Positions 47,871-64,000 of a stretch of DNA of 64,000 nt are shown piece after piece. The stretch is taken from positions 1 to 64,000 of the forward strand of contig NZ_JADMJL010000011.1 of NCBI RefSeq assembly GCF_018780585.1. Direction: 5' to 3'. Source of the DNA: Methyloversatilis discipulorum (GTDB lineage Bacteria > Pseudomonadota > Gammaproteobacteria > Burkholderiales > Rhodocyclaceae). A model generated the notes under the pieces. The model did not search any database and was not told where the DNA came from. It worked only from the letters and a program-made list of their open reading frames with translations. A program made the translations under genes and the position numbers. Position 1 is the first letter of the stretch. Each line of letters starts with the position of its first letter.

Positions 47871-48314
47871 GTGAAGATTGCGTACGACGCTCAGGAGACC
47901 GTGACTGCAGACGTGCCGAAGCGTCTGGTCAGCATCCTTGCCGACGGCGGTGAACGCTTGCTCAAGCTGCAGGCCGAGTCGGTCAGTTCCGCGCTGACCA
48001 CCCAGATGCGGGCCATCGAGCCGCCGCAGACAGTCGCCGAGGCGATGTCTGCGCTGTGGCAGTTGCCGCAGCTTTACGGTGCCTTGCTCGAAGAGATGGC
48101 CGAGCACGCGCGGCAGTCCTATCACATCATGTCGCAGGTGCAGAACGAGCTGGTCGACCTGGCTTGCGATTCGGTGGTGCAGCAGGCGCCGGCGCTGACC
48201 GAGGCATTGAGCAGCGGCAACGTGCTGTTTGCCGACCGGCGTCACCGGTCGGTGGTGATCAACTTTCCCGACCGCCGCGGCATGATTGCGCGCAGCCGCT
48301 CGCAGAGCGCCTGA
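47871..48314 (+). CDS. Phasin-like protein
   Basis: A 147-residue, mostly helical protein ([20 protein letters not shown], then a run of heptads to about residue 105) that resembles phasins, which coat polyhydroxyalkanoate granules. The GTG at 47871 with a GGGGG-rich ribosome site gives [11 protein letters not shown]; the frame is open further upstream. No PHA synthase gene is nearby, so the role is inferred from weak family resemblance. Confidence 0.6.
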
Positions 48315-48484
48315 CCGAGGCGCCGAGCGGCGCCGTTCGATGCGTTCCGGCGGTTGTCGGTGGCGACCTGCACGGCATTCGCCGGGAACCCCCGCGCCGC
48401 GGTAAAATCCTGACCCTTTCGCACGGGCGGCCTGTCCGACGCCGTGCGGCCCGCTATTTCCGCACCTTCCGGTTCCCCAACACG

Positions 48485-49387
48485 ATGAGTACATTGACGC
48501 ACCTGCAACGGCTGGAAGCCGAGAGCATCCACATCATGCGCGAAGTGGTGGCCGAGGCCGAAAACCCGGTCATGCTCTATTCGGTCGGCAAGGACAGCGC
48601 CGTCATGCTGCACCTCGCCGCCAAGGCCTTCTATCCGTCGGTCCCGCCCTTTCCGCTGCTGCACGTCGACACCACCTGGAAGTTCAAGGCGATGTACGAG
48701 TTTCGCGACGCAATGGCGCGCAAGCTCGGCATGGACCTGCTGGTGCACATCAATCCGGACGCCAAGGCACGCAACATCAACCCGTTCGACCACGGTTCGG
48801 CGCTGCACACCGACATGTGGAAGACCGAGGGCCTGAAGCAGGCGCTGGACAAGTACAAGTTCGACGCCGCTTTCGGCGGCGCCCGTCGCGACGAGGAAAA
48901 GTCGCGCGCCAAGGAGCGCATCTTCTCCTTCCGCACCGCGCAGCACCGCTGGGACCCGAAGAGCCAGCGCCCGGAGCTGTGGAAGCTGTACAACGCGCGC
49001 AAGCATCCGGGTGAATCGATCCGCGTGTTCCCGATCTCGAACTGGACCGAACTGGACATCTGGCAGTACATCCACCTCGAGAACATTCCCATCGTCCCGC
49101 TGTACTTCGCGGCCGAACGGCCGGTGGTCGAGCGCGACGGCACGCTCATCATGGTCGACGACGAGCGCATGCCGCTGCGTCCGGGCGAGACGCCGCAGAT
49201 GAAGAGCGTGCGCTTCCGCACGCTGGGCTGCTATCCGCTGACCGGCGCGGTCGAATCGACCGCTGCCACGCTGACCGACATCATCCAGGAAATGCTGCTG
49301 ACCACGACGTCGGAGCGCCAGGGCCGCGTGATCGACCACGATTCCTCCGGTTCGATGGAAAAGAAGAAGCAAGAGGGTTATTTCTAA
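48485..49387 (+). CDS. cysD: Sulfate adenylyltransferase subunit 2
   Basis: A 300-residue ATP-sulfurylase catalytic subunit: PP-loop [13 protein letters not shown] at about 33-45, [20 protein letters not shown], and a conserved C-terminus ending in EKKKQEGYF. With CysN it forms APS from ATP and sulfate for assimilation. The stop is followed at once by cysN, with no gap. The start at 48485 is the conserved [11 protein letters not shown]. Confidence 0.96.
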
Positions 49388-51118
49388 ATGGCACACGTTT
49401 CCGACCTCATTTCGCAGGACATCGAGGCCTACCTGCGCCAGCACGAGCACAAGAGCCTGCTGCGCTTCATCACCTGCGGCAGTGTCGACGACGGCAAGAG
49501 CACGCTGATCGGTCGCCTGCTGTACGAATCGAAAATGCTGTTCGAGGACCAGCTGGCCGCGCTCGAAGCCGACTCGAAGAAGGTGGGCACACAGGGCGGC
49601 GACCTCGACTTCGCGCTGCTGGTCGACGGCCTGGCCGCGGAGCGCGAACAGGGCATCACGATCGACGTCGCCTACCGCTTCTTCTCGACCGACCGGCGCA
49701 AGTTCATCGTCGCCGACACGCCGGGCCACGAGCAGTACACGCGTAACATGGTCACCGGCGCCTCGACCGCCGATCTGGCCATCATCCTGGTCGACGCCCG
49801 TCACGGCGTGCAGACGCAGACCCGCCGCCACAGCTTCCTGGTGTCGCTGATCGGCATCAAGCGCGTCGTCGTCGCCATCAACAAGATGGACCTGGTCAGT
49901 TACTCGAAGGACGTGTACGAGCGCATCGAGAAGGACTACCGGGATTTCGCTGCGCAGATCGGCCTCTCCGACATCCTGTGCATCCCGATGTCCGCGCTGA
50001 AGGGCGACAACATCATCGAGAAGAGCGCTGCCACGCCGTGGTACGCCGGTCCGGCGCTGATGGACCACCTGGAAACCGTGCAGATCGAGGACGACCTGCA
50101 GGCGCGTCCGTTCCGTCTGCCGGTGCAGTGGGTCAATCGCCCGAATCTCGACTTCCGCGGTTTCTCCGGCCAGATCGCTTCCGGCACCGTGCGTCCCGGC
50201 GACCGCGTGCGCGTGCAGCCGTCCGGCCGCGACACCACGGTCGAGCGCATCGTGCTGTCGACGCACGATCTGAGCGAAGCGGTGGCTGGCCAGTCGGTCA
50301 CCGTTACCTTCGCCGACGAGATCGACTGTTCGCGCGGCGACGTGATCGTCGCCGCTGATACGCCGGCACTGATCGGCGACAGCTTCGACGCCACGCTGGT
50401 GTGGATGAGCGATGAAGCCATGGCCACCGGTCGCAGCTATCTGATGAAGTGCGGCACCCGTACGGTCGGCGCCACCGTCAATGCGATCGAATACCGTGTG
50501 AACGTGAATACGATGGAGCGCTCCGCCACCGCCGCGCTTGCACTGAACGAGATCGGCCGCGTGTCGCTGCTCACGGACCGACTGCTTGCCTTCGATCCGT
50601 ACGAGTCGGTGCGTGATACCGGCAGCTTCATCCTGATCGATCGCCTGACCAACAACACGGTCGGCGCCGGCCTGCTGCATGGCGCTCGCAGCCGACCGCG
50701 CGACCTGAGCTGGACGCGCCTGGAAACCGGTCGCGCTGCACGCGCTGCACTGAAGCAGCAGTCGCCGCTGCTGCTGTGGGCAGGCGAAGGCATCGCCGCC
50801 GACAAGCTTGAACAGAAACTCATGTCGCTCGGCCGCCACACCATCACGCTGCCGGCTGCCACCGCAGATCTGCCGCGCATCGCCGGCATCCTGCTCGATG
50901 CCGGTCTGGTGGTGGTGATCGACGCCGACTCGGCGCAGCCGGACAGCCTGGTTGCCGCACTGCCGTCTGGCGAGCACGTCGAACTGAAGATCGACGCCGG
51001 CGCCGCGCAGGCCGCGCTGGACGCCAGCGGCCAGCGTCTCGTGCTGGCTGCCGGCGCGGCGGAAGAAGTGGTCGAACAGATCGTCGAAACCCTGCGCCGC
51101 GCCGGACGTCTGAGTTGA
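49388..51118 (+). CDS. cysN: Sulfate adenylyltransferase subunit 1 with degenerate APS-kinase-like tail
   Basis: A 576-residue protein. The GTPase part (about 25-240) has GSVDDGKSTLIGRLL, DTPGHEQYTRNM and NKMD, followed by two beta-barrel domains to about 445. Plain CysN ends near there, but residues about 452-576 form an extra domain. Its LKQQSPLLLW, KLMSLGRHTITLP and LLDAGLVVVI segments align with CysC. The expected Walker A (GLSGAGKS) reads GEGIAAD and the DGDN motif is gone. APS kinase activity is therefore unlikely, and the tail may be structural. Confidence 0.93.
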   Translation: MAHVSDLISQDIEAYLRQHEHKSLLRFITCGSVDDGKSTLIGRLLYESKMLFEDQLAALEADSKKVGTQGGDLDFALLVDGLAAEREQGITIDVAYRFFSTDRRKFIVADTPGHEQYTRNMVTGASTADLAIILVDARHGVQTQTRRHSFLVSLIGIKRVVVAINKMDLVSYSKDVYERIEKDYRDFAAQIGLSDILCIPMSALKGDNIIEKSAATPWYAGPALMDHLETVQIEDDLQARPFRLPVQWVNRPNLDFRGFSGQIASGTVRPGDRVRVQPSGRDTTVERIVLSTHDLSEAVAGQSVTVTFADEIDCSRGDVIVAADTPALIGDSFDATLVWMSDEAMATGRSYLMKCGTRTVGATVNAIEYRVNVNTMERSATAALALNEIGRVSLLTDRLLAFDPYESVRDTGSFILIDRLTNNTVGAGLLHGARSRPRDLSWTRLETGRAARAALKQQSPLLLWAGEGIAADKLEQKLMSLGRHTITLPAATADLPRIAGILLDAGLVVVIDADSAQPDSLVAALPSGEHVELKIDAGAAQAALDASGQRLVLAAGAAEEVVEQIVETLRRAGRLS

Positions 51119-51124
51119 GCGACA

Positions 51125-51151
51125 GGCCGGACGCGCGCTGCGCGCCCGGCC
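51125..51151 (+). terminator. Hairpin after cysN
   Basis: GGCCGG/CCGGCC outer and GCGCG/CGCGC inner stems with a 3-nt loop follow seven bases behind the cysN stop. There is no T-tract, only a C/T-rich tail, so terminator strength is uncertain. Confidence 0.45.
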
Positions 51152-51178
51152 CTCCCTCCCACCGACGCCGGAGCCGCG

Positions 51179-51826
51179 ATGAGCGCCCAACCTCCCGCAG
51201 ACGAGGACGCGGTCCGCGCCGCGTCGATCGAGAAGTACCGCAGGCGTGCCGCCGGCTATGACGCCACCTGCGGACCGACCTGGCCGATCCGCGAACGCGC
51301 GATTGCACTGCTCGGCCTGCAAGCCGGTCAGTCGGTGCTCGACGTCGGCTGCGGCACCGGGCTCAGCCTGCCGTTGCTGCGGGCTGCCGTCGGCGATACC
51401 GGGCGGGTCTATGGCTTCGACCAGAGCCCGGACATGCTGGCGCAGGCGTGCCGCCGCGTGGCAGAGGCCGGCTGGGACAACGTCGAACTGTTCGAAACCG
51501 CGGCGCAGGGCCTGCGCTTGCCGGACCGGGTCGATGCGCTGCTGTTCCACTACACCCACGACATCCTGCGCTCGCATAGCGCGATCGACAGCCTGCTGGC
51601 CTGCGCGCGACCGGGCACCGTGGTGGCAATCGCCGGCATCAAGTATTTCCCGCGCTGGCTGGCGCCGCTCAACCTCTGGGTCTATCTGAAGAACCACGGC
51701 TACAACGGCGCGCCGGGCGAGCTGCGTGCGCCGTGGGATCGCATCGCACCGCGCCTGGTCGATTGGTCGATCACGATCACGCAGTACGGCATGGGCTATC
51801 TGGCCCGCGGCCGCGTGCCGGAATGA
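51179..51826 (+). CDS. SAM-dependent methyltransferase
   Basis: A 215-residue class I methyltransferase: YRRRAAGYDATCGPTW, motif I VLDVGCGTGLSLPLL, and VYGFDQSPDMLAQACRR. It resembles UbiE/phospholipid-type methyltransferases, but the acceptor is unknown. The stop overlaps the ATG of the membrane sulfatase gene (ATGA), which suggests a joint envelope-related role. Confidence 0.8.
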   Translation: MSAQPPADEDAVRAASIEKYRRRAAGYDATCGPTWPIRERAIALLGLQAGQSVLDVGCGTGLSLPLLRAAVGDTGRVYGFDQSPDMLAQACRRVAEAGWDNVELFETAAQGLRLPDRVDALLFHYTHDILRSHSAIDSLLACARPGTVVAIAGIKYFPRWLAPLNLWVYLKNHGYNGAPGELRAPWDRIAPRLVDWSITITQYGMGYLARGRVPE

Positions 51827-53556
51827 CCGACAGACGCGCGTCGGGCCCGCAGCAGGCCATCGTCGCGCTGGCCGCGCTGCTGCTCGGCAACGCGCTGCTC
51901 AGCGCCAACAATCTGTGGCCCACGCCCTTCATCGTGCCGGATCACCGGCTGTCGCCGGAGTTCGTCGGCCTGTGGCTGGCACTGATGGTGGTAGTTGCCC
52001 GCTATGGCCGCCTGCCGGCTCGCGCACTTACGGTCTTTACTGCGCTGTTCCTGCTGTTCGCGCTCGGTCGCTATGCCGACGTGACCGTGCCCGGCCTGTT
52101 TGGCCGGCCGGTCAATCTGTTCTGGGATGGCCAGCAGATTCCACGCTTTCTCTGGGTGACGGCGCAGGGCCTGCCCTGGTGGGTGAGCGTCGGTGCGCTG
52201 GCAGCGATTTCGCTGCTCAGCTGGGCACTGTGGCGCGGCGCGCGTGCGCTGGTCGGGCAGATCGCGCACCGGGCGGTTCCGTATGCGCTGCGTCACCGCT
52301 GGTCGCGCGTCGCGACCGCGCTGGCGATGCTGCTGGTGGCCGCCAATCTGGCCGGCGTCGAGGCAACCTGGCCGGTGGTGTCGCGGCCGATCACGCCGAC
52401 CTACTGGCGGCAGGCCACTTTGCTTGCCACGCTGATGTCGCCGGAGGCGGTGGCGCGCGCGCTGCCGCAGGTGCCGGCGCTGAACGACGCGCTGGCGCAG
52501 CCGCCGGGCCGTGCGCTGAGCGCGCTGCGCGGTCGCGACGTCTATCTGATGCCGCTCGAGTCCTACGGCGCCGTGGTCTACGACGATGCGCAGGCGGCGC
52601 GTCTGCTGCAGCCGGCGCGCGACCGTCTTGCGCAGGACCTGGCTGCCGGCGGCTGGCAGGTGGTGTCGGCTTTCATGCGCTCGCCCACCTTCGGCGGCGC
52701 GTCCGATCTTGCACAGCTCGGCATGCTCTCCGGCCTCGATCTGAGTGACCCGCGGCGACACGACCTGCTGGTCACGACCGAGCGACCGACGCTGATCACC
52801 CTGTTCCGGCGCAACGGCTACCGCACGTACGGCTTCTATCCGGCGCTGTTCTGGGAGTGGCCGGAACGCGTGTTCTACGGTTACGACGTGTTCATCGACG
52901 GCCGCGACCTGCGCTACCCGGGTCCCGAAATAGGCTACTGGAAGATTCCTGACCAGTATTCGGCCGAGCGATTCGAACAGCTGCACCCGCGTGAGGCCGA
53001 CGCGCCGCCGCGCTTCGTGTTCTTCCCGACCATCACCAGCCATCTGCCGTTCTCGCCGGTGCCGCCCTTCCAGCCCGACATCGACCGCCTGCTCGGCGAC
53101 ACGCCCTTCGATCCGGTCGATGCGGCACGCGCGCTGGCGAAGAAGCCAGACTGGCTGAACATGTTCCCGGACTACATCGGAACCATCGAGTACACCTACC
53201 GCTGGCTGGGCGACCACCTGCGACGGGCGCCACCGCGCGACACGCTCTACGTGCTGGCCGGCGATCACCAGCCGGTGGCCGGCGTCAGCGGCGAAGGCGC
53301 GTCGTGGGACGTGCCGGTGCACATCGTGTCGCGCGACCCCGAATTGCTCGCGCGCTTCGTCGCACAGGGCTTCCAGCCCGGGCTGACGCCGCCGCGCGCA
53401 GCCGTCGGCGGTCTGCACGACCTGACGACCCTGCTGCTGCGCGCGTCCGGCGATCTGCCGATCGCGCGGCTCGGCCTCGCCTCGCAGTCTTCGGCGCTGA
53501 CCGCTCAGGCGACGTCGAGCGCGGCCGGTGTTGCTTCCACTGCGTCGTCGCGATAG
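51823..53556 (+). CDS. LTA-synthase-like membrane sulfatase-domain protein
   Basis: A 577-residue protein. About five membrane helices (residues 10-200) are followed by an extracytoplasmic sulfatase/phosphatase domain of the LtaS/OpgB type. Recognisable elements are YLMPLESYGAVV, RSPTFGGASDLAQLGML, FFPTITSHLPF and LAGDHQPVAG, the last with metal-binding Asp-His. Relatives transfer glycerol phosphate or phosphoethanolamine to envelope glycans; the substrate here is unknown. Its last 52 bases overlap the converging ATP-grasp gene. Confidence 0.85.
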   Translation: MTDRRASGPQQAIVALAALLLGNALLSANNLWPTPFIVPDHRLSPEFVGLWLALMVVVARYGRLPARALTVFTALFLLFALGRYADVTVPGLFGRPVNLFWDGQQIPRFLWVTAQGLPWWVSVGALAAISLLSWALWRGARALVGQIAHRAVPYALRHRWSRVATALAMLLVAANLAGVEATWPVVSRPITPTYWRQATLLATLMSPEAVARALPQVPALNDALAQPPGRALSALRGRDVYLMPLESYGAVVYDDAQAARLLQPARDRLAQDLAAGGWQVVSAFMRSPTFGGASDLAQLGMLSGLDLSDPRRHDLLVTTERPTLITLFRRNGYRTYGFYPALFWEWPERVFYGYDVFIDGRDLRYPGPEIGYWKIPDQYSAERFEQLHPREADAPPRFVFFPTITSHLPFSPVPPFQPDIDRLLGDTPFDPVDAARALAKKPDWLNMFPDYIGTIEYTYRWLGDHLRRAPPRDTLYVLAGDHQPVAGVSGEGASWDVPVHIVSRDPELLARFVAQGFQPGLTPPRAAVGGLHDLTTLLLRASGDLPIARLGLASQSSALTAQATSSAAGVASTASSR

Positions 53557-54845
53557 GGCGCGCGCCAGCCGAGCAGGTCACTGGCCGTTTCCGCCCGTGC
53601 GCGCAGTTCGGCCGCGTCGGCGCCGTCCAGATGGACGATGCCGTAGCGGTGGCTGCCGGTCCATTTCAGGTCGCGCCGCAGCGCCCGGCCGCGGCGGCCG
53701 AAAGCGAACAGCAGGCCGTCCGGAAAGGCCTCGGCGAAGCGCGCACGCCGCGCCGTGTCGGGCATCGGCGGCACGGTGGCCGTGTCGAAGGCGCGATAGA
53801 CCAGGCTGGCCGCGACACGGGCACGTGGCGTCTCACGACGCAGCAGGCGCGGGTCCTCGCCGTGCGCCAGTGCGAGCGACCAGGCGTGGGCGTCGATGCC
53901 GTGCACGCGCAGGTAGAGGTCGGAAAACTGCGACGCCAGACGCGGATTGCACTCGATCACGGTAAGCCGGTCGCGCGCATCGTCGTAGAAGAACTCCAGG
54001 TTGAAGAAACCGTGGTCGTAGCCGATCGCGCCAAGGAAGCGGCGTGCCACGTCGAGCGCGCGCACCTGCACCGAGGCGGGCAGCCGGCTGGGCAGTTCCC
54101 AGCGCATGAAGGCCTGGGTGCCCGGGTGCATGATGGCGTCGACCACGCCCAGCGCATGCACCTGTCCGTCAAACACCCAGCCGTCGAGATTGAACTGCGG
54201 CGTCGCCGGATCGATCGGCTCCTCCAGCAGCATGCGGTGCGCGCTGCCGGCCGCGGACAGACGCGCGCGGCAGACGCGGTCGAAAGGTTCGATCAAACGT
54301 CGGATGATCCAGCGCTCGGCCACGTCGAAGCGGGTGTGCGCCTGCAGCACCTCGCGGCTGCCGACTTCGCGCGCCAGCACGGAAAAGGCCGCCTTGATCG
54401 GCTTCGCGTAGACCGGGTAGGCAAAGCCGGCCGGCAGCCCTGTCGGCACGTCGTCGCCACACGCCATGTCCAGCGCGGCGAAACGCAGGCAGGCCTCTGG
54501 CGCGACGGCTTGCAGCACGCGCCGCGCGTGCAGCTTGTGCTGCGCCGCCAGGATGGCTTCGGGCGGCGCGCAGGGCAGGTCCAGCCTTTCTGCGACCAGC
54601 GCGGCTGCCAGTGCACCGAAGGCCTCCTGGTGCGACAGCACTGCCGACCAGCCGCGCCGTCGTGCGCGCGCCGCGGTGCGCTCGGCGAAGCGTTCGAGGT
54701 CGAAACCGATCAACCGCAGACTGGACGGGAACGAAAACAGATCGAAGCCCGCGTGGTCGAAGTCGTGGCCCGCGCCTGAGCGCGCGAAGCCGATGCGATC
54801 CCAGTCGTAGGCGAACAGCAGGCCGGCGCGCGGTCTGGAGGGCAC
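53505..54845 (-). CDS. ATP-grasp enzyme of unknown function next to egtD
   Basis: A 446-residue protein with an ATP-grasp fold at about 110-330. FAYPVYAKPIKAAFS gives the first nucleotide lysine. GFFNLEFFYDD and LTVIECNPRLASQ give the Mg-binding Glu and Asn pattern. The N-terminal part (about 1-105) is a pre-ATP-grasp domain. Such enzymes join a carboxylate to an amine or thiol. It diverges from egtD with a 94-bp gap and could share control with the hercynine/selenoneine genes, so a role in tailoring or using that product is possible. Other roles are equally open. Confidence 0.8.
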   Translation of the reverse strand: MPSRPRAGLLFAYDWDRIGFARSGAGHDFDHAGFDLFSFPSSLRLIGFDLERFAERTAARARRRGWSAVLSHQEAFGALAAALVAERLDLPCAPPEAILAAQHKLHARRVLQAVAPEACLRFAALDMACGDDVPTGLPAGFAYPVYAKPIKAAFSVLAREVGSREVLQAHTRFDVAERWIIRRLIEPFDRVCRARLSAAGSAHRMLLEEPIDPATPQFNLDGWVFDGQVHALGVVDAIMHPGTQAFMRWELPSRLPASVQVRALDVARRFLGAIGYDHGFFNLEFFYDDARDRLTVIECNPRLASQFSDLYLRVHGIDAHAWSLALAHGEDPRLLRRETPRARVAASLVYRAFDTATVPPMPDTARRARFAEAFPDGLLFAFGRRGRALRRDLKWTGSHRYGIVHLDGADAAELRARAETASDLLGWRAPYRDDAVEATPAALDVA

Positions 54846-54885
54846 GTATCATCCTTGGCGAGTGGCCGGTCGCGCCGGCGGGATC

Positions 54886-54915
54886 CACTGCGGGCAATCG
54901 GCCGCCCGCGCAGTG
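54886..54915 (+). promoter_or_regulatory. Imperfect hairpin in the egtD leader
   Basis: CACTGCGGGC pairs with GCCCGC-GCAGTG across an 8-nt loop with a two-base bulge. It lies in the 94-bp gap between the divergent ATP-grasp and egtD starts, upstream of the egtD ribosome site (GAGGGGAA). It could be an operator or an RNA structure. Confidence 0.3.
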
Positions 54916-54939
54916 CACAGAATACGAGGGGAATGGACC

Positions 54940-55905
54940 ATGGTGCGCACGCCGCGTTTCATCCAGCTGCAGCCGGTCGACGACGCGGGGCAGATGCCGG
55001 CGCTGTGGGGCGGTCTGCAGGCGCCGGTGGCGCGGGTGTCGCCGAAGTATTTCTACGACGCACTGGGTTCGCGGCTGTTCGAGGCGATCACCGAACTGGA
55101 CGAGTACTACCCGACGCGCACCGAGGCCGCCATCTTCGACGCCCACGCCGCCGACATGGCAGCGCGGCTGCGCGCGCACGCGGGCCCGGCGCACGATCTG
55201 ATCGACCTCGGTGCCGGCAGCTGTGCCAAGGCGGCGAAGCTGTTTCCGCTGTTCGCGCCGCACCGCTACGTCGCGGTCGACATCTCGGTCGACTTCCTGA
55301 AGCACTCGCTCGAGTGCCTGCAGCGCGCCCATCCGGACATGGACATGGTGGGTGTCGGCCTCGACTTCTCCGCCGCCCTCGCACTGCCAGCCGCGGTGTA
55401 CGACGGGCCGGCGCTGGTGTTCTACCCTGGCTCCAGCATCGGCAACTTTGCGCCGGACGAGGCGCTGCGCCTGCTGCGCGAAGCGCGCACGGTGGCCCGC
55501 GGCGGCGCGCTGCTGATCGGCGTCGATCTGGTCAAGGACAAGGCCGTGCTCGACGCCGCCTACGACGACGCGCTCGGGGTGACCGCCGCATTCAACCTGA
55601 ATGTGCTGCGCCATCTGAACCGCATCGCCGGCACCGATTTCCGCATCGCCGACTGGCGCCACGTCGCCTTCTTCGATCCGGCGTGTTCGCGCATCGAAAT
55701 GCACCTGGAGGCGCGCCAGTCGCTCACCGTGCACTGGCCGGGCGGCGAGCGCCGTTTCGCCGCTGGCGAGCGCATCCTCACCGAACACTCATGGAAATGG
55801 ACGCGCGAGCGCTTCGACGCGCTGCTGCGCGAAGCCGGTTTCCGCGACATGAGCTGCTGGACCGACGCGTGCGACCGGTTCGGCGTGTTCCTCGCATGCG
55901 CCTGA
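54940..55905 (+). CDS. egtD: L-histidine N-alpha-methyltransferase (hercynine synthase)
   Basis: A 321-residue EgtD: ELDEYYPTRTE at 52-62, SAM motif DLGAGSCAKAAKLFP from residue 89, VDISVDFLKHSLE, and FYPGSSIGNF. It trimethylates histidine to hercynine, the precursor shared by ergothioneine and selenoneine. The ATG at 54940 has a good ribosome site; the longer frame to 54862 crosses the leader hairpin. The gene converges on the EgtB/SenA gene with an 11-bp gap. Confidence 0.94.
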   Translation: MVRTPRFIQLQPVDDAGQMPALWGGLQAPVARVSPKYFYDALGSRLFEAITELDEYYPTRTEAAIFDAHAADMAARLRAHAGPAHDLIDLGAGSCAKAAKLFPLFAPHRYVAVDISVDFLKHSLECLQRAHPDMDMVGVGLDFSAALALPAAVYDGPALVFYPGSSIGNFAPDEALRLLREARTVARGGALLIGVDLVKDKAVLDAAYDDALGVTAAFNLNVLRHLNRIAGTDFRIADWRHVAFFDPACSRIEMHLEARQSLTVHWPGGERRFAAGERILTEHSWKWTRERFDALLREAGFRDMSCWTDACDRFGVFLACA

Positions 55906-55916
55906 GACGTGCCGTG

Positions 55917-57128
55917 TCAGCGGATCGCGCAGCTGCGGAAGCCGGCCGGCACGTCGTCGCGCTCGGGCCGGAAGAAGTTGCGGTAGCGCGGGTCGCGCAT
56001 GCGCGGCTGCGTCATGAAGGAGGCGCCGCGCAGCACGCGGCGGTCACCGAACCACGGCGCCGAATAGTCGCGATAGGGATGCGGCGCGAAGCCGGGGTAG
56101 GGCAGGAAGTCGCTGGCCGTCCATTCCCATACGGCGCCCCAGCGGAAGCGATCCGGCGCGCTCAGTGCAGCACACTCCCACTCCGCTTCGGTCGGCAGCC
56201 GGCGGCCGGCCCAGCGACACCACGCTTCGGCTTCGTAGGCGCTCAGGTGGCAGGCTGCGGTGTCCGCGCCCAGCACCTGCCAGCGACCGTATGTGCAGCG
56301 CTCCCAGCAGCTGCCGGTGCGTCTCAGGTAGCGCGGCTGCGTGCGCCCCTGCGCCATGCGCCAGCGCCAGCCGTCGGCGCTCCACCAGCGCGGGTCTTCG
56401 TAGCCGCCGGCATCGACGAAGGGCAGGTAGTCGCGCCAGCTCACTGCGGCGCTGTCGATGTCCAGCGCCGGCACGTTCACCGTGTGCGCGCACAGTTCGT
56501 TGTCGAAGGCGAAGCCGTCTTCGCTGCTGCCGAGCAGGTGGCGGGCTGCGGGCACCGACAGCGTGTCGCGTGCGCCGGCCGCTGTCGGCTGCCAGCGCGG
56601 GTCGTCCACCGCGATGTCAAGCTGCTGCGCCATGTACAGCGCGGCTTCGTGGTGCATGTCCTCGTGCAGCAACGACAGGCGGAAGAAGTAGAGCGCGTCG
56701 TCGCCATCGTCCGGCACGCCTGCCAGCAGCGAAAGGACACCGTCCAGTTGCCGGGCGAGATCGTCCAGCGTCGTATCGGCGTCCGGCAGCGGCAGGGTGG
56801 GGCGGCTCGCGTGGGGCACGCGGCTGGAGTCGTACAGCGCGTCGGCGTTGGCCCGCAGCGGCGGCGTGCGCGCGACGTCGGGGTCGGCACGCACGCCCTT
56901 CAGATAAAGCGGATTGCGCAGCGTCCACCACGCCTGGAACCATCCGATGTGACCCAGCTCCCACAGCGGCGGATTCAGCGTTTCGTGGACCGGAATGCGC
57001 AGTGTCGGGCGGGCGCGCCGATAGTCGGCGAAACGGGCCAGCGTGTCATCGCGGCTCGCGCGCAGCGCTGCCGCGAGAGCCGTGCGGTCTCCGCGACGCG
57101 CGACCGCCGATTGATCTGAGGCCTCCAT
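55917..57128 (-). CDS. senA: SenA/EgtB-type non-haem iron enzyme (probable selenoneine synthase)
   Basis: A 403-residue protein with a DinB-like N-terminal domain and a C-terminal formylglycine-generating-enzyme-like domain (RRLPTEAEWECAAL, GAVWEWTASDF, RVLRGASF). The iron ligands appear intact: His60 in LWELGH, and His155 and His159 in HEDMH. EgtB joins hercynine to a thiol donor; SenA homologues join it to a selenosugar. Assignment to SenA rests mainly on the adjacent senB-type and selD genes. The ATG at 57128 is 13 bp from the divergent senB start. Confidence 0.85.
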   Translation of the reverse strand: MEASDQSAVARRGDRTALAAALRASRDDTLARFADYRRARPTLRIPVHETLNPPLWELGHIGWFQAWWTLRNPLYLKGVRADPDVARTPPLRANADALYDSSRVPHASRPTLPLPDADTTLDDLARQLDGVLSLLAGVPDDGDDALYFFRLSLLHEDMHHEAALYMAQQLDIAVDDPRWQPTAAGARDTLSVPAARHLLGSSEDGFAFDNELCAHTVNVPALDIDSAAVSWRDYLPFVDAGGYEDPRWWSADGWRWRMAQGRTQPRYLRRTGSCWERCTYGRWQVLGADTAACHLSAYEAEAWCRWAGRRLPTEAEWECAALSAPDRFRWGAVWEWTASDFLPYPGFAPHPYRDYSAPWFGDRRVLRGASFMTQPRMRDPRYRNFFRPERDDVPAGFRSCAIR

Positions 57129-57141
57129 CGAACACACGTCC

Positions 57142-58131
57142 ATGTCCCGTCCATCCATCGTCATCGTCACGCCGGCGCTGGCCGACGCCAACAACGGCAA
57201 CTGGCGCACCGCACGTCGCTGGGCCGCCATGCTGCGGCCGCGTTTTGACGTGCGGCTGGTATCCGACTGGCAGGGCGGCGACGAGGTATTGATGATCGCA
57301 CTGCACGCCCGCCGTTCCGCCGCAGCCGCCACTGCGTGGCGGAAGGCACACCCGTCGCGTCCGCTGCTGCTCGCGCTGACCGGCACCGATCTGTACCGCG
57401 ACATCGACTGCGACGCCTCGGCCCGGCATTCGCTCGCCATTGCCGATCGCCTGATCACGCTGAACACGCTCGGCGCGCGTGCGCTGCCGCCGGCGCTGCG
57501 CGCACGCTGCAGCGTGCTGCTGCAATCGACGCCGGTGCGCGCACGCGTTGCACCGCCGACGCGCCATCTGCGCGCGCTGATGATAGGCCACCTGCGCATC
57601 GAGAAGGCGCCGGACACGCTGTTCGATGCGGTGCGCCGGCTGCGCATGCGCACCGATATCCGCATCGACCACATCGGCGGGGCGCTGGATCCCGCGCTGG
57701 GCGAGCGGGCGCGCACGCTGATGCACGAATGCCCGCACTATCGCTGGCTGGGCGGGTTGACGCACGGCGACACGCTGCGTCGGCTGGCGCGCGCCAGCGT
57801 GCTGGTGCATCCGAGCCGCATGGAGGGCGGCGCACATACAGTGATCGAGGCAGTGCGCTGCGGCGTGCCGGTGATCGCGTCGCGCATCGACGGCAACGTC
57901 GGCCTGCTCGGCGAGGACTACGATGGCTGTTTCGAGGTGGGCGACGCGGCGGCGCTGGCCGCATGCATCGCCCGCGCACGCGACGATGCCGGCTGGCTGG
58001 CCCGGCTCGACCGGCAGTGCGCCGCGCGCGCGCCGCTGTTCGCACCCGAACGAGAGCGTGCGGCACTGGTCGCGCTGGTCGACGGATGTCTGGCATCCTT
58101 CGGCCCGCGACATGGCGTCGCGACCGCATGA
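57142..58131 (+). CDS. senB: SenB-type glycosyltransferase (probable selenosugar synthase)
   Basis: A 329-residue GT-B enzyme of the group described as TIGR04348, now linked to SenB. SIVIVTPALADANNGNWRTA starts the N-lobe, and VHPSRMEGGAHTVIEAVRCG with VPVIASRIDGNVG is the donor-binding site. SenB makes a selenosugar from selenophosphate and a UDP-sugar, the first dedicated step to selenoneine. The stop overlaps the selD start (ATGA), which strongly supports joint function. Confidence 0.88.
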   Translation: MSRPSIVIVTPALADANNGNWRTARRWAAMLRPRFDVRLVSDWQGGDEVLMIALHARRSAAAATAWRKAHPSRPLLLALTGTDLYRDIDCDASARHSLAIADRLITLNTLGARALPPALRARCSVLLQSTPVRARVAPPTRHLRALMIGHLRIEKAPDTLFDAVRRLRMRTDIRIDHIGGALDPALGERARTLMHECPHYRWLGGLTHGDTLRRLARASVLVHPSRMEGGAHTVIEAVRCGVPVIASRIDGNVGLLGEDYDGCFEVGDAAALAACIARARDDAGWLARLDRQCAARAPLFAPERERAALVALVDGCLASFGPRHGVATA

Positions 58132-59225
58132 CAACCCCGCAAGAACTGGATGGACAGATGAACGAAGCGCAGGCAGCGAGCACCGAACCCCGACTGACTT
58201 CCCTCTCGCATGGCGGCGGCTGTGGCTGCAAGATCGCGCCCGGCGTGCTGTCCGAGATACTGAAGCACACTGCGGCGATGCCGGTGCCGCCGGAACTGAT
58301 GGTGGGCATCGAAACGTCGGACGATGCGGCGGTGTATCGCCTCAACGACGAACAGGCGCTGATCGCGACCACCGATTTCTTCATGCCCATCGTCGACGAC
58401 CCGTTCGACTTCGGCCGCATCGCCGCCACCAACGCGATCAGCGACGTCTATGCGATGGGCGGCCGGCCCATCCTCGCGCTGGCGCTGGTCGGCATGCCGA
58501 TCAACGTACTGTCGACGACGACCATAGGCCGCATCCTGGAAGGTGGGGCGTCGGTCTGCCGCGAGGCCGGCATCGTCGTCGCCGGAGGCCACACCATCGA
58601 TTCGGTCGAGGCGATCTACGGTCTGGTGGCGCTCGGCATCGCCCACCCGGATCGCATCCGCCGCAATGCCGACGCGCAGCCGGGCGATGTGCTGGTGTTG
58701 GGCAAGCCGCTCGGCGTCGGCGTCATGTCGGCCGCGCTGAAAAAGGGTGCGCTGGACGAGGCCGGCTACGCGCGCATGATCGCCAGCACCACCAAGCTGA
58801 ACACACCGGGGCCGGATCTGGCGGCGTTGCCCGGCGTGCATGCGCTGACCGACGTGACGGGGTTCGGACTTGCCGGCCACGCGCTCGAGCTGGCGCGCGG
58901 TTCAGGCTGCGACGTGTCGATCGACTGGTCGGCAGTGCCGCTGCATGCCGGCACGCGCGAACTCGCAGCGCAGGGCTTCGTCACCGGCGCATCGAACCGC
59001 AACTGGGCCGGCTACGGCGAGCGCGTCGTGCTGGCCGACGGCTTCGCGGCGGAAGATCGCGCACTGCTCACCGATCCACAGACCAGCGGCGGCCTGCTCG
59101 TGTCCTGCACGCCGGACGCGCTGGATGCGGTGATCGCCACCTTCCGCCGTCACGGCTTCGATGCGGCCACCGTGATCGGTCGCGTCGGTGATCGCAGCGC
59201 AGCGCCGGTCGTGCGCGCCGGCTGA
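58128..59225 (+). CDS. selD: Selenophosphate synthetase (SelD/SenC)
   Basis: A 365-residue SelD: SHGGGCGCKIAP carries catalytic Cys32 and Lys35 (a cysteine form, not selenocysteine), with ETSDDAAVY, TTDFFMPIVDDPFDFGRIAA and LTDVTGFGLAGHALEL. It makes selenophosphate from selenide and ATP. Coupled to senB, it fits the SenC role, though it may also serve tRNA selenation or selenocysteine synthesis if it is the only copy. The ATG at 58128 was chosen for the coupling; 58158 is an alternative. Confidence 0.93.
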   Translation: MTTPQELDGQMNEAQAASTEPRLTSLSHGGGCGCKIAPGVLSEILKHTAAMPVPPELMVGIETSDDAAVYRLNDEQALIATTDFFMPIVDDPFDFGRIAATNAISDVYAMGGRPILALALVGMPINVLSTTTIGRILEGGASVCREAGIVVAGGHTIDSVEAIYGLVALGIAHPDRIRRNADAQPGDVLVLGKPLGVGVMSAALKKGALDEAGYARMIASTTKLNTPGPDLAALPGVHALTDVTGFGLAGHALELARGSGCDVSIDWSAVPLHAGTRELAAQGFVTGASNRNWAGYGERVVLADGFAAEDRALLTDPQTSGGLLVSCTPDALDAVIATFRRHGFDAATVIGRVGDRSAAPVVRAG

Positions 59226-59265
59226 TTCACGTCTCATCGGTGGCATACTCGCCGCCGTTCCGTCC

Positions 59266-59350
59266 GCCCGGATGGTGAAACTGGTAAACACAGCGGACTT
59301 AAAATCCGCCGCCGCAAGGCTTACGGGTTCAAGTCCCGTTCCGGGCACCA
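59266..59350 (+). tRNA. tRNA-Leu(TAA)
   Basis: An 85-nt class II tRNA with encoded CCA. The acceptor GCCCGGA/TCCGGGC, anticodon stem GCGGA/TCCGC with loop CTTAAAA (anticodon TAA), a long variable arm and T loop TTCAAGT are all present. Confidence 0.95.
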
Positions 59351-59399
59351 ATGCAGGACCAGTCGCCTCAGGCTCAGTTCGCCGAACTGGCGCATTTCC

Positions 59400-59489
59400 C
59401 TGTGGGCGCGGCCTTGGCCGCGACTGGGTCGCCGCGGTCCGCCGGCTTCGGTTCAGGCTGCTGTCGCGGTCAGAAGGTCCCTCCCACCG
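59400..59489. repeat. Dispersed hairpin repeat, second locus
   Basis: A diverged single copy of the element at 4302-4575: TGTGGGCGCGGCCTTGGCC, then GGCTTCGGTT, then CTGTCGCGGTCAGAAGGTCC and CTCCCACC. Both inner hairpins are recognisable, with some mismatches. It lies between tRNA-Leu and the lipoprotein gene. The remainder of 59351-59676 holds no gene. Confidence 0.7.
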
Positions 59490-59676
59490 CATCCGCGTGT
59501 GCGGGCGATCAGCCGGCTCGGCTTCCGCGCGCAACGCCCGCCAGCCGTCGGATTCCGCCGACAGATCGCTTCGTTGCCGGCCTACCGCGCGACAGCGCAT
59601 CGCTCCCTAGACTTCAGATCAAGCCGCGAGCGATCGACATCGCGTGCTGACCGATCAATGACTGCGGAGAAACGCG

Positions 59677-59904
59677 ATGAAAACGCCGATCCATACCCTC
59701 AAGACCGTATCCATCGTGGCCGTGCTGGCTGCCCTGACGACTGGCTGTGCCGGTATGAGCCGCAGCGAAAGCAACGCGATGATAGGTGCCGCGGCCGGTG
59801 GTGTCGCCGGCTCCGTGCTGACCGGCGGCAGCACTGTCGGTACCGTGGGTGGTGCCATCGTTGGTGGCGCCATCGGTAACGAGATGGGCAAGAAGAAGCG
59901 CTGA
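59677..59904 (+). CDS. Glycine-zipper outer-membrane lipoprotein
   Basis: A 75-residue protein with a lipoprotein signal ending in LTTGC and a mature part made of glycine-zipper repeats (MIGAAAGGVAGSVLTGG, VGTVGGAIVGGAIGNEMG). It resembles OsmB/SlyB-type small lipoproteins that respond to envelope stress. A strong terminator follows, so it is probably monocistronic. Confidence 0.85.
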   Translation: MKTPIHTLKTVSIVAVLAALTTGCAGMSRSESNAMIGAAAGGVAGSVLTGGSTVGTVGGAIVGGAIGNEMGKKKR

Positions 59905-59934
59905 ACGAGCGAGGCGAAAGTCAGTCCCGCTCCG

Positions 59935-59975
59935 GGGCCGGTGGTGCACAGGTGCGCCGCCGGCCCTTGTCGTTT
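59935..59975 (+). terminator. Intrinsic terminator after the glycine-zipper gene
   Basis: A 14-bp stem (GGGCCGGTGGTGCA with TGCGCCGCCGGCCC, including two G-T pairs) and a 4-nt loop, followed by TTGTCGTTT. Confidence 0.8.
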
Positions 59976-60029
59976 CCTGGCTGGGCTGAGCAGCGCTATG
60001 CTGACCGGATCCGCTTACCACGACCGATC

Positions 60030-60818
60030 ATGCTGATCGATACCCACTGCCACCTCGATGCCTTTGAATTCGACGCTGACCGCAGCGCGATGATCGCGCG
60101 CGCGCGCGCTGCCGGCGTCGGCTGCATGGTGCTGCCGGCCGTCGACCGTGACGGTTTCGGCCGGGTGAGGGCACTGTGTGACGGGCAGGCGGATCTGCGC
60201 TTTGCATTGGGCATCCATCCGCTCTTCGTGCCGGCCGCGCGACCCGACGATCTGGACCGGCTGGCGATGGAACTGGATGCTCATGACGTCCTCGCCGTAG
60301 GCGAGATCGGTCTCGATTTCTTCGTCACCGACATCGATCCCGAACTGCAGGAGTGGTACTTCGTCGCCCAGCTGAAGCTCGCGCGCGAACGCGGCCTGCC
60401 GGTGCTGTTGCATGTGCGGCGCAGTCAGGACCGGATACTCAAGCACCTGCGCGCCGTGTTCGGCCGCAACGGGCCGGGCGGCATCGCCCATGCCTTCAAC
60501 GGCAGCCGTCAGCAGGCCGACGAATTCATCAAGCTGGGCTTCGCGCTCGGCTTCGGCGGAGCGGTGACCTGGCAGCGCGCACTGAATCTGCGCCGTCTGG
60601 TGACCGAACTGCCGCTTGAATCCATCGTGCTCGAAACCGATGCACCGGACATCCCGCCGGAATTCGCCGCCGGTGAACGCAACGAGCCGGCCCATCTCCC
60701 GCGCATCGCGCAGGTGATCGCCGGCATCCGGGGCATTGCGACCGACGAACTGGTTGCCGCCACCGGGGCCAACGCGCTGCGCGTGCTGCCCCGGCTGGCG
60801 AGCGCTTACATCGAGTAG
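60030..60818 (+). CDS. tatD: TatD family metal-dependent DNase/hydrolase
   Basis: A 262-residue TIM-barrel hydrolase: DTHCHLDAF, GIHPLFVP, VGEIGLDFF, LLHVRRSQD, HAFNGSRQQA and ETDAPDIPP give the metal ligands. Family members act as 3'-5' DNA exonucleases or deacylases. The start at 60030 gives the conserved MLIDTHCH. Its last 13 bases overlap the converging receptor gene. Confidence 0.92.
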   Translation: MLIDTHCHLDAFEFDADRSAMIARARAAGVGCMVLPAVDRDGFGRVRALCDGQADLRFALGIHPLFVPAARPDDLDRLAMELDAHDVLAVGEIGLDFFVTDIDPELQEWYFVAQLKLARERGLPVLLHVRRSQDRILKHLRAVFGRNGPGGIAHAFNGSRQQADEFIKLGFALGFGGAVTWQRALNLRRLVTELPLESIVLETDAPDIPPEFAAGERNEPAHLPRIAQVIAGIRGIATDELVAATGANALRVLPRLASAYIE

Positions 60819-63013
60819 GACGCGGACAGGCCGATCAGCCAGGTGCGTTCTGCGGCCGGGGCGTAGTAGCGGCCGGTCAGCGCGTTACCTGCGTTGATGT
60901 ACACCGAGCCTACGTAGTCCTTGTCGAACAGGTTGTCGATGCGCGCGAACTCGTTCAGCGTCCAGCCCTTCACCTTCTGCGTGAAGCCGGCGCGAATCGC
61001 CGCAACGCCATAACCACCGACACGAACGTCGTTGGTGTCGTCACCGAACATGCGTCCGCTGGCGCGGTACTCCAGTGCGCTCTTGAAGCCCCACGGATCG
61101 TGCTTGTAGGTCACTTCGCCGTAGAAGGACTTGTTGGCAATGCCGGCGATGCGGTTGCCGTCGCTCACGGTGACTGCCTGTCCCGGTGCGCAGGGGGTGG
61201 CGAGACAGGTGCGGAAAGCATCGTCGAACTCGGCCTTGATGAAGGTTAGCGAGGCGTATGCGCCAACGTCACGGGTGAGCCGCGAATCGAGCGCTAACTC
61301 GATGCCACGACGCGAGGTGTCACCGGCGTTCTGGTACACCGCACGGCCGTTCTCGTTGCTGCGGATGACGATCTCGTCGGACGAATCGATGTAAAAGGCA
61401 GCGGCGTCAAGGCGAGTCGAATCGTTCAGGAAAGTCTTCACGCCGACCTCATACTGGTTGCTGGTCGACGGCTTGAGATCGAAGTTCAGACCGCTGCCGC
61501 CATCCGGACGATATGCCAGTTCGATCAGCGTCGGCGCCTCGAAGCTGCGGCCGGCGTTGGCGTAAAGGTTGGTGGTCTGGGTGACTTTCCACACCGCGCC
61601 GAGGGCCGAGGTCCAGTCGCTGTAGGAGACCGAACCGCTGTCATCCGGGTTCACGCCGGCGGCGTTCGTCGTGCCGGAGCAGCCGCCGTTGCAGACGAAG
61701 TGGTCGCGCGACTTGAAGTCGAGCTTGGTGTAGCGCAGGCCACCGGACAGCAGGACGGTGTCGGTGGCCGCCCATTCGCCCTGGAAGAAGGCGCCTGACT
61801 GCTCGGCCACGTTGTTCTCGTCACGCTTCAGATCGCCGCGGAAGCCGAACACGGTGCTCAGCGCCTGTGCCCCACTCTTCGTTTCGCCGTTGCGATAGCC
61901 ACGACGGTGTTCGTCGGCGCGCTCGTACTCGGCGCCGAGACTGAAGGTGACCTTCTCGTACTTGCGGGTCCAGCGCAGGTTGGTACCCCAGTAATCGCGA
62001 TCGAACGCTGACACGCCGCCCGAAGCAGTCACGTTGTCCTGTGTGCCGGCGTTTAGTGCAAGGTACTGCTCGTTGTTCCGGTTGCCGAGGTAGAACATCG
62101 CGCGCAGCGAATCGCGTTCGGTCAGCTGCGCCTCGAACACGGCACCACCCTGGGTGTTCTCAAGCGTGCGGCGGGTGCCGTAGAAGGAAGCGGTTCCCGG
62201 ATTGCCGGCCAGATTGCGGTTGGACGTGCCCTGCTGACGACGATTGTCGTTAAGTTGGGCGAAGGTCAGGCCGAGCGGGTCCTGGCCCTGCTGGTGCATG
62301 TAGTTGCCCACCACGGTTAACGTCGCGTTGTCGCTCAGACGCCACTTCGCCTTGAAGTTCGCCTGGTCCTTGTCGGACTCGCTGTAGGCGCGGTAGCCGT
62401 CGGTGCGGAAGTGCGACACGCTGGCGGTGTAGTTGAAAATGCCGATGGTGTCGCCGAATTTCAGTCCATAGCGGGCCGTGTCGTAGCTGCCGAACTGGAA
62501 GCTGGGCGTCATCGTAAAGCGCTCCGGGCCGTCCTCGGTAAACACCTGCACCACGCCACCCGAGTGGTTGCCGTACAGCGCCGAGAAAGGGCCGCGCAGC
62601 ACTTCGATGCGGTTGGCCGAGGCGAGGTCGAAAAGGCCGGTACCGCCCTGGCCGTCCGGCGTGCTGGCCGGAATGCCGTCGGCGAACAGCTTCACGCCGC
62701 GCACACCGAAGGCTGAGCGCGCACCGAAGCCGCGGATGGTGAGCGACTGTTCCTGGGTGTAGTTCTCCTTGCCGGCAGCGGCCACGCCGGGTACGCGGTT
62801 GATCACTTCGGACAGGTTCACCGTCGCGCGCTGCTCCTGGATGGTTGCTGCATCGATCGAATCGATGGCCATCGGCAGGTCGAAGGAATTCTGCTCGACC
62901 CGGGTACCGGTGATGACCACCGTCGGGGCGAGGATGGGCGGAGCGGCCAGCGCGGTGTGACCCATCAGCGCAAGGGCGAGGGCAATCGGGGTGTGGCGGA
63001 GCACGGTTGTCAT
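60806..63013 (-). CDS. TonB-dependent outer-membrane receptor
   Basis: A 735-residue receptor: signal peptide 1-23, TonB-box-like segment PTVVITGTRVE, plug domain (about 40-150, with LSEVINRVPGV and RIEVLRGPFSALYGNHSGG) and a 22-strand barrel. It resembles FecA/PupB-like iron-chelate receptors, although no N-terminal signalling domain is present. A CNGGC pair sits in an extracellular loop region. The chain ends in SASYSM and not in the usual aromatic residue. The ligand is not predictable; a citrate- or siderophore-type iron complex is plausible. Confidence 0.9.
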   Translation of the reverse strand: MTTVLRHTPIALALALMGHTALAAPPILAPTVVITGTRVEQNSFDLPMAIDSIDAATIQEQRATVNLSEVINRVPGVAAAGKENYTQEQSLTIRGFGARSAFGVRGVKLFADGIPASTPDGQGGTGLFDLASANRIEVLRGPFSALYGNHSGGVVQVFTEDGPERFTMTPSFQFGSYDTARYGLKFGDTIGIFNYTASVSHFRTDGYRAYSESDKDQANFKAKWRLSDNATLTVVGNYMHQQGQDPLGLTFAQLNDNRRQQGTSNRNLAGNPGTASFYGTRRTLENTQGGAVFEAQLTERDSLRAMFYLGNRNNEQYLALNAGTQDNVTASGGVSAFDRDYWGTNLRWTRKYEKVTFSLGAEYERADEHRRGYRNGETKSGAQALSTVFGFRGDLKRDENNVAEQSGAFFQGEWAATDTVLLSGGLRYTKLDFKSRDHFVCNGGCSGTTNAAGVNPDDSGSVSYSDWTSALGAVWKVTQTTNLYANAGRSFEAPTLIELAYRPDGGSGLNFDLKPSTSNQYEVGVKTFLNDSTRLDAAAFYIDSSDEIVIRSNENGRAVYQNAGDTSRRGIELALDSRLTRDVGAYASLTFIKAEFDDAFRTCLATPCAPGQAVTVSDGNRIAGIANKSFYGEVTYKHDPWGFKSALEYRASGRMFGDDTNDVRVGGYGVAAIRAGFTQKVKGWTLNEFARIDNLFDKDYVGSVYINAGNALTGRYYAPAAERTWLIGLSASYSM

Positions 63014-63044
63014 TGGAGGTCTCTCTCTGGGTGTCTACGGCCGG

Positions 63045-63056
63045 GCGCAATTGCGC
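63045..63056. promoter_or_regulatory. Perfect palindrome in the leader of the receptor gene
   Basis: GCGCAATTGCGC is a 12-bp perfect palindrome about 32 bp upstream of the receptor start codon. A TATACT hexamer, read on the minus strand, lies farther upstream near 63113-63118. The palindrome could be an operator or a leader hairpin. Confidence 0.3.
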
Positions 63057-63183
63057 GGGCCTGCTGTCTCGGATGCGCGGCGCGTCTGTGCGCGCCTGAT
63101 CGAACGGGCGCGAGTATAGGCAGCCGCTGCTTACAAAGCCTCACGAAAAACTTGAACCGGCTGGCCGGGTGCCGACGCCAGGT

Positions 63184-63627
63184 TCAGCGCGCCAGCAGGA
63201 CGGCGAGCGCGGGCGGTGCCACCACCTTCAACGTCGACGGGCACAGCCGGTGCCGGCCAAGGCGCAGCACGGCGCGGTCGCGCGATACCAGCAGGTCGGC
63301 GCCACTGCGCACGGCGAGGTCGAAAAACTTCTGGTCCTCGCGATCCCGGCAGCGCGGCAGCGATGTATCGGGCTGCTCAGGCAGCGGATGCAGTTCGATC
63401 CGTGCGAGGTAGTCGGCGTACAGGCGGGCGGCGGCCTCGTCGTCGAGGCCGAACTTGTCGTAGCGCAGCACGGTGCGCAGTTCGCGCAGGCAGGCTTCGT
63501 CGCACGACAGCCGCGCGCGGCCGTCGGCCAGCGCCTGTGCCACGCAGTCCAGTTCGGCGTTGTGCCACAGCAGCAGGTCGAGTACCGCGTTGGTGTCGAG
63601 AACGATGTGCTTCACGATGTCCTTCAT
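63184..63627 (-). CDS. PIN-domain ribonuclease-like protein
   Basis: A 147-residue PIN protein with the acidic set visible: Asp in VLDTNAVLDLLL, Glu in DEACLRELRTVL, and Asps in CRDREDQKFFDLA and LLVSRDRAVL. This resembles the toxin-like PIN family annotated as a putative toxin component. No antitoxin gene is adjacent, because the next upstream gene is on the opposite strand. It may be an orphan toxin or a housekeeping RNase. Confidence 0.82.
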   Translation of the reverse strand: MKDIVKHIVLDTNAVLDLLLWHNAELDCVAQALADGRARLSCDEACLRELRTVLRYDKFGLDDEAAARLYADYLARIELHPLPEQPDTSLPRCRDREDQKFFDLAVRSGADLLVSRDRAVLRLGRHRLCPSTLKVVAPPALAVLLAR

Positions 63628-63719
63628 GATCGGCGCGCAGTGTAGGGCTTCAGCGTCGCCGCGGCGAACGTTTCCGCCCGGCGCGCGGTCTGTTGCGCAT
63701 CGGCGGAAGGAGGTGCGTC

Positions 63720-64000
63720 ATGGTTTCGCAGGAACTGCTGGCCTTTCTGGTCGACCTCGCAGCCAAGCTGTCCGGCTATCCGCCCATTCCGGTCGACGCG
63801 CTGCCGCCGGTGCAGGTGCTGACGGAAGCCGAACTGGCGAAGGCGGTCTGTCCCGAGGCAGCGGCCGGCTGCACCAATATCGCGGCCACCTTCGAGACCG
63901 AGCACTACGTCATCTACCTGCGCGATACGCTCGACCTCGAGAACGCCGCCGACAATTCCTTCCTGCTGCATGAACTGGTGCATGTGCTGCAGCACAAGGC
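63720..64000 (+). CDS. Partial gene with a HExxH zinc-protease-like motif
   Basis: The first 93 codons of a gene that runs off the window. A very strong ribosome site (AAGGAGGT) lies five bases before the ATG at 63720. The sequence reads MVSQELLAFLVDLAAKLSGY, later NIAATFETEHYVIYLRDTL, and ends with LLHELVHVLQHK, where HELVH fits the HExxH zinc-binding signature of metallopeptidases. No signal peptide is visible. The rest of the protein is needed for classification. Confidence 0.7.
   Translation, partial: MVSQELLAFLVDLAAKLSGYPPIPVDALPPVQVLTEAELAKAVCPEAAAGCTNIAATFETEHYVIYLRDTLDLENAADNSFLLHELVHVLQHK

Follow-up and report, generated by a model that had tools for sequence, protein, structure and literature searches.

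The 64,000-nucleotide window analysed here, from Methyloversatilis discipulorum (assembly GCF_018780585.1, contig NZ_JADMJL010000011.1; its own genome is coded G000 below), very probably holds a selenoneine locus of the senABC type that includes an egtD, judging from the families to which the encoded proteins belong, and the product of the locus is almost certainly selenoneine. Positions 53505-59225 contain five genes: a divergent ATP-grasp gene (53505..54845, minus strand), egtD, encoding a predicted L-histidine N-alpha-methyltransferase or hercynine synthase (54940..55905, plus strand), senA, encoding a predicted selenoneine synthase of 403 amino acids (55917..57128, minus strand), senB, encoding a predicted selenosugar synthase of 329 amino acids (57142..58131, plus strand), and selD/senC, encoding a predicted selenide, water dikinase of 365 amino acids (58128..59225, plus strand). 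An earlier note on this DNA had described the interval as a selenoneine-type locus of four genes. The four genes that it named are all present and their products pass the NCBIfam cut-offs for EgtD, SenA, SenB and SelD, with family-score E-values for the named pathway genes (7e-106 to 1.5e-159) that are far beyond chance; its gene count fell short by one, as the first 1.34 kb belong to the ATP-grasp gene on the minus strand, which it did not mention. The selenoneine core belongs to the sen type already known, and what differs is the extra, recurrently linked ATP-grasp gene.

The SenA protein reaches 522.7 bits against NCBIfam model NF041186 (cut-off 420), whereas it stays below the cut-offs for EgtB (TIGR03440, 253.9 vs 360 bits) and OvoA (103.3 vs 400 bits). 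Its nearest solved structures are those of SenA (8ryz and 8k5i, 423 bits), followed by OvsA (153 bits) and EgtB (145 bits), and its residues His60, His155 and His159, which the earlier note had listed as intact iron ligands, are all present and align with histidines of the solved SenA of Variovorax paradoxus. In a tree of 59 rows, a single 100/100 branch divides the 41 over-cut-off rows, among them the window protein, from 18 rows that are below the cut-off or are EgtB (15 from the searched genomes and three EgtB references from ATP-grasp loci). SenA exceeds the cut-off at 41 distinct places, which comprise 38 SenA-centred stretches, the window, L103 and G266:C19; the last of these was covered with 1.5-kb flanks only and the other 40 more widely. 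EgtB identity for the SenA protein is ruled out by the failed EgtB cut-off, the difference between 423 and 145 bits and the 100/100 branch. The possibility that the locus makes ergothioneine, with the SenA-like protein acting as a sulfoxide synthase and SelD being there by chance, can draw on the homology of SenA to EgtB seen in the TIGR03440 score and on the fact that EgtD and hercynine are common to both pathways. We nevertheless consider it very improbable, given the SenA cut-off passed, the EgtB cut-off failed and the firm grouping with SenA, and given that senB and selD, which themselves overlap by ATGA, adjoin senA. Unlike the EgtB/EgtD pathway of ergothioneine, the window has a SenA-clade protein and a gene for a selenosugar synthase, and its own genome gave no EgtB match at E<=1e-60.

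OvsA forms a C-Se bond on histidine, with ovoselenol as product. It is a homologous C-Se synthase (8ux5, 8u41) and the next solved relative after SenA, which might suggest that the locus makes ovoselenol rather than selenoneine; however, its similarity to the window protein is far below that of SenA, and the SenA substrate hercynine would be supplied by the egtD of the same block, so that we regard an ovoselenol locus as scarcely credible. OvsA identity for the protein is ruled out by the same scores (153 vs 423 bits) together with its placement in the SenA clade.

The remaining three proteins were assigned with similar clarity. The egtD product scores 353.8 bits against TIGR03438 (cut-off 290.9) and matches solved EgtD structures with E-values down to 6.5e-49. 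The selD product scores 530.5 bits against PRK00943 (cut-off 299), matches the solved SelD 3u0o (E 7e-96) and retains, as had been claimed, Cys32 and Lys35, which we take to be the catalytic pair. The senB product scores 425.4 bits against TIGR04348 (cut-off 300) and aligns almost end to end with the solved SenB structures 8k5u and 8fbx (351 bits). Its Lys155 aligns with the lysine of a solved SenB, and it carries an EGGAHT motif; the published lysine and motif, in the part of the account available to us, are K158 and EGGAHV (PMC10891094). The end of senB and the start of selD share the ATGA at 58128-58131, the coupling that the earlier note had pointed out. That note had also proposed placing the EgtB-like protein on a SenA/EgtB tree and scoring the glycosyltransferase against TIGR04348/SenB; since the former falls in the SenA clade and the latter passes the SenB cut-off, both comparisons leave the selenoneine reading standing.

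In the pathway that we propose, EgtD would convert histidine to hercynine, SelD would make selenophosphate, SenB would join selenophosphate and a uridine diphosphate (UDP)-sugar into a selenosugar, and SenA, an iron enzyme, would form the C-Se bond onto hercynine, giving a selenoxide that breaks down to selenoneine, an antioxidant that contains selenium. The SenA reaction is O2-dependent. These assignments agree with published accounts, as far as the portions available to us go, in which SenC/SelD provides selenophosphate, SenB the selenosugar and SenA the C-Se bond with hercynine before selenoneine is released (PMC9814287, PMC10702425, PMC10891094), and in which hercynine is supplied by EgtD (PMC7278568). 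We infer the steps at this locus from strong family membership combined with the biochemistry published for homologues.

The sen cluster of Variovorax paradoxus (senA, senB, senC) was reportedly described by Kayrouz et al. in 2022. The window block has the same three enzymes, keeps the SenB lysine and the SenA histidine ligands, and shares the arrangement in which senB overlaps selD. It was through such an overlap with selD that sen was discovered (PMC9814287). Unlike the V. paradoxus cluster, which is described as three genes in the parts of two reports that we could consult (PMC10702425, PMC10891094), the window block adds egtD and the divergent ATP-grasp gene and has a methyltransferase-sulfatase pair beside it. 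senA lies on the strand opposite to egtD, senB and selD, and the start codons of senA and senB are only 13 bp apart (57129-57141), so that promoters would have hardly any space in the gap; other sen loci also have senA and senB in divergent order, mostly farther apart.

The presence of egtD in the block had been taken as making it a self-contained version of the system. While egtD is indeed present, its special status is weaker than supposed: EgtD is found within 10 of the 38 other SenA-centred stretches (L120, L126, L128, L135, L137, L147, L149, L152, L153 and L155), so that an egtD in a sen block is a common form rather than a new one, and the novelty of its inclusion is rejected. A second EgtD over the cut-off (366 bits) is encoded elsewhere in the own genome (G000:C61:149464-150363; L236:8950-10203, minus strand), where it adjoins genes that by eye resemble glycogen branching enzymes. 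Contig C3 (L237:8612-11970, plus strand) encodes an OvoA, both of whose domains exceed the cut-off, and after it a PatB-family C-S lyase, which by family assignment is the ovothiol pathway in the same genome. An MnmH/SelU tRNA 2-selenouridine synthase over the cut-off (G000:C46:148250-149170, minus strand) means that the SelD product has another user. As a point against the selenoneine assignment, the second EgtD, the OvoA-PatB pair and MnmH imply that hercynine and selenophosphate need not all go to selenoneine; MnmH and the second EgtD lead us to reject the idea that selD or egtD serves selenoneine exclusively.

The ATP-grasp gene, which has a GTG start and encodes a 446-amino-acid candidate carboxylate-amine ligase, is linked to EgtD. 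We searched 240 Burkholderiales genomes at thresholds of E<=1e-60 for EgtD, E<=1e-120 for SenA and E<=1e-30 for the ATP-grasp protein, and found 103, 53 (51 over the cut-off) and 28 positive genomes, respectively; the presence/absence lists for the co-occurrence tests were compiled by hand from the search tables. EgtD is present in 28/28 ATP-grasp-positive genomes and in 75/212 negative ones, and SenA in 23/28 and 30/212 (hypergeometric 5e-12 and 4e-13, uncorrected for phylogeny), and the association of the ATP-grasp gene with SenA persists within EgtD genomes (7e-5, same test, likewise uncorrected). The 28 genomes are spread over 12 family labels. Five of them have no SenA call: G478, G490 and G593 have EgtB, G528 is negative at E<=1e-120 yet encodes a 39% SenA beside its egtD, and in G563 neither SenA nor EgtB was found at the thresholds used. 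Genome size is a confounder of this co-occurrence. Among the 37 genomes of at least 3 Mb in a 60-genome sample, EgtD and SenA occur in 10/10 ATP-grasp genomes compared with 23/37 and 17/37 overall (p 0.003 and 6e-5), where G397 was counted as ATP-grasp-positive in the sample through a match of 45 residues at the end of a contig and is not among the positives of the 240-genome set. In a class-level set of 369 genomes, 15 of the 19 other genomes with better-scoring ATP-grasp relatives have EgtD; the relatives in the four that do not (G322, G155, G362 and G363) are of 28-33% identity, as are many of those in the fifteen that do.

The neighbourhoods of ATP-grasp relatives were counted in the best 80 of 307 found in GTDB contigs, that is, in the close subfamily, with SenA and EgtB told apart by the better tblastn score. 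Near the ATP-grasp gene we found EgtD in 36 loci, SenA in 32, SenB in 27, SelD in 21 and EgtB in 9; any egt or sen gene was nearby in 43/80, or in 29/48 where at least 5 kb were present on both sides. In six loci the ATP-grasp gene precedes a co-directional egtD, the hits being 57-75 bp apart; it is divergent from egtD at 89-194 bp in four (L156, L157, L188, L202), and it directly follows EgtB in five (L160, L171, L182, L184, L221), the first three of these in the order methyltransferase-EgtB-ATP-grasp. At L103, a PhnCDE-like transporter (L103:7960-11439) stands between the ATP-grasp gene and egtD, its binding protein being over the cut-off of TIGR04553 (putative selenate ATP-binding cassette (ABC) transporter), and ABC transporter parts identified by likeness (clusters C4, C5 and C7) occur in 20-23 of the 80 loci. 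In the tree of ATP-grasp proteins, which kept 102 of 116 stretches (dropped were those with no ATP-grasp hit, a stop or fewer than 350 amino acids) and left 37 of the 102 rows unlabelled for having less than 5 kb on one side, the label of a nearby EgtD changes 16 times over the 65 labelled rows, at least nine of these changes being forced by starred branches, compared with a shuffled mean of 21. These repeated changes indicate that the pairing with EgtD was gained or lost repeatedly. Two class-level relatives abut large proteins of one cluster (L112:10627-14046 and L113:5940-9359), and both genomes have EgtD. The L112 protein is a fusion of a molybdopterin oxidoreductase and a cysteine desulfurase, the L113 one being known by clustering only, and this fusion matches what the portion of the source available to us says of the ergothioneine synthase MES (PMC10903977).

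Since the chalcogen enzyme near the ATP-grasp family varies (SenA, EgtB, perhaps MES) and EgtD is constant, the shared scaffold would be the hercynine betaine, and the divergent ATP-grasp gene most likely encodes a further enzyme of hercynine-betaine metabolism. The amine of hercynine is quaternary, and a ligase of this type could therefore use only its carboxylate. Using ATP, the protein would convert hercynine, ergothioneine or selenoneine to an acyl phosphate and then join the activated carboxyl group to an amine, and we infer an amide of one of these betaines as the simplest product. This substrate and reaction are proposed tentatively, and we are much less sure of them than of the selenoneine core. 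In an alignment of 66 of 81 possible rows (the window and the 80 loci), picked for length and spread and excluding L229 for a stop in its frame, K148, E208, E284, E298, P301 and R302 never vary and N300 hardly does; E284, E298, N300 and R302 may correspond to the metal-binding E/N/R of ATP-grasp ligases. Pfam ATP-grasp_4 (PF13535) is found in 10 of 11 family members; the window protein itself has no Pfam match at E<=0.01, no PHROGs match at E<=1 and only weak NCBIfam matches, far under the cut-offs. A profile of 11 relatives searched against the PDB found carbamoyl-phosphate synthase first, then the L-amino acid ligase BL00235, D-Ala-D-Ala ligases and BacD. With BL00235 and BacD, which only carbamoyl-phosphate synthase precedes among the nearest solved structures, the family would share an ATP-grasp core, and an E-x-N-P-R motif occurs in the window protein's family; unlike them, the window protein belongs to a separate, EgtD-linked family. 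In a literature search thin on subscription journals, we found no published link between the ATP-grasp gene and the selenoneine, ergothioneine or hercynine pathways, nor, with few such journals covered, anything on hercynine together with an amino acid ligase; the papers examined that pair ergothioneine with ATP-grasp mention glutathione enzymes in that connection.

Several observations weigh against a role of the ATP-grasp protein in hercynine-betaine metabolism. The amino acid ligases score low (29-40 bits with the 11-relative profile), and a profile of the 66 closer relatives matched five PDB chains only, with BL00235 at 22 bits and BacD absent. The co-occurrence statistics carry no phylogenetic correction beyond the 12 family labels. 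The ATP-grasp gene stands beside senA in only 6 of 53 SenA genomes (G000, G371, G467, G540, G544 and G575), 30 of the 53 have no ATP-grasp match at E<=1e-30, where fragmented contigs may hide some, and all 38 other SenA-centred stretches lack the gene. Among the 80 close relatives, 37 have no egt or sen gene in their stretch, many of these contigs being cut. A YHS-domain protein cluster is present in 32/80 loci, often after the ATP-grasp gene (cluster C2; exemplar L211:1499-2251 scanned), and a patatin cluster in 21/80 (one exemplar scanned). Finally, G156, one of the MES-neighbour genomes, encodes a SenA/EgtB-family protein beside its egtD (L254, 33% to SenA), so that MES need not be the sole route there.

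The YHS-domain protein may be a partner of the ATP-grasp protein. Alternatively, the ATP-grasp gene may be a bystander that serves some other function, perhaps together with the YHS-domain or patatin proteins, in which case shared ancestry, genome size or ecology would account for its occurrence alongside EgtD. We hold this to be a serious possibility, if short of an even chance; the frequency of the two clusters, the empty SenA-centred stretches, the 37 relatives with no nearby egt or sen gene and the lack of EgtD in 4 of the 19 class-level genomes that carry distant relatives all speak for it. It is opposed by the presence of EgtD in every one of the 28 positive genomes, by the 10/10 genomes with both EgtD and SenA at 3 Mb or more, and by a co-localisation that recurs across the ATP-grasp tree and with SenA, EgtB and MES-like partners alike. 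Another explanation is that the protein makes a thiol donor for EgtB, such as a gamma-glutamylcysteine-like dipeptide, as might be suggested by the five loci in which it directly follows EgtB and by its weak similarity to amino acid ligases. This role fits poorly and is unlikely, because EgtB over the cut-off is missing in 19/28 ATP-grasp genomes, the own genome included, and 17 of those 19 have SenA (E<=1e-120), whose donor is a selenosugar and not a thiol.

Hercynine-betaine metabolism, our preferred setting for the ATP-grasp protein, may involve two further genes of the window. A predicted class I S-adenosylmethionine-dependent methyltransferase (51179..51826, plus strand; Pfam Methyltransf_25) and a sulfatase-superfamily protein (51823..53556, plus strand; PF00884, E 4.9e-7), the latter with N-terminal membrane segments apparent by eye, are possible accessory genes. 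The start of the sulfatase-family gene overlaps the stop of the methyltransferase gene by ATGA (51823), and at its 3′ end it shares 52 bp (53505-53556) with the ATP-grasp gene, which runs towards it. Relatives of the methyltransferase were found by tblastn near the ATP-grasp gene in 24/80 loci, a count that generic methyltransferase similarity may inflate, and a sulfatase in 12/80, with methyltransferase/sulfatase pairs at L159, L168, L169, L173 and L179. The order cysDN-methyltransferase-sulfatase-ATP-grasp-egtD-senA-senB-selD is collinear in L157 and L188 and largely so in L156, all three from Methyloversatilis. No clear palindrome that might serve as an operator was seen by eye between the ATP-grasp gene and egtD in a four-sequence alignment. 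An Rfam search of 48000-64000 at gathering thresholds found, as the only RNA element, a tRNA gene (59266-59347, plus strand) directly after selD, whose anticodon loop reads TAA by eye.

Taken further, and held as tentatively as the reaction itself, the ATP-grasp protein may found an as yet undescribed branch of chalcogen-histidine metabolism, in which a ligase dependent on EgtD attaches an amino acid or another amine to the carboxyl group of hercynine, ergothioneine or selenoneine in SenA-, EgtB- and MES-type producers. Many sen loci would then have peptide-like selenoneine conjugates as their actual final products, with the methyltransferase and the sulfatase-family protein perhaps processing them further. 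Known selenium natural-product pathways are few, and the cited literature treats selenoneine as an end point. If betaines derived from hercynine do have an amino acid-type ligase, then selenoneine and ergothioneine may be intermediates on the way to conjugates, and these would escape mass-spectrometry searches aimed at the free compounds.

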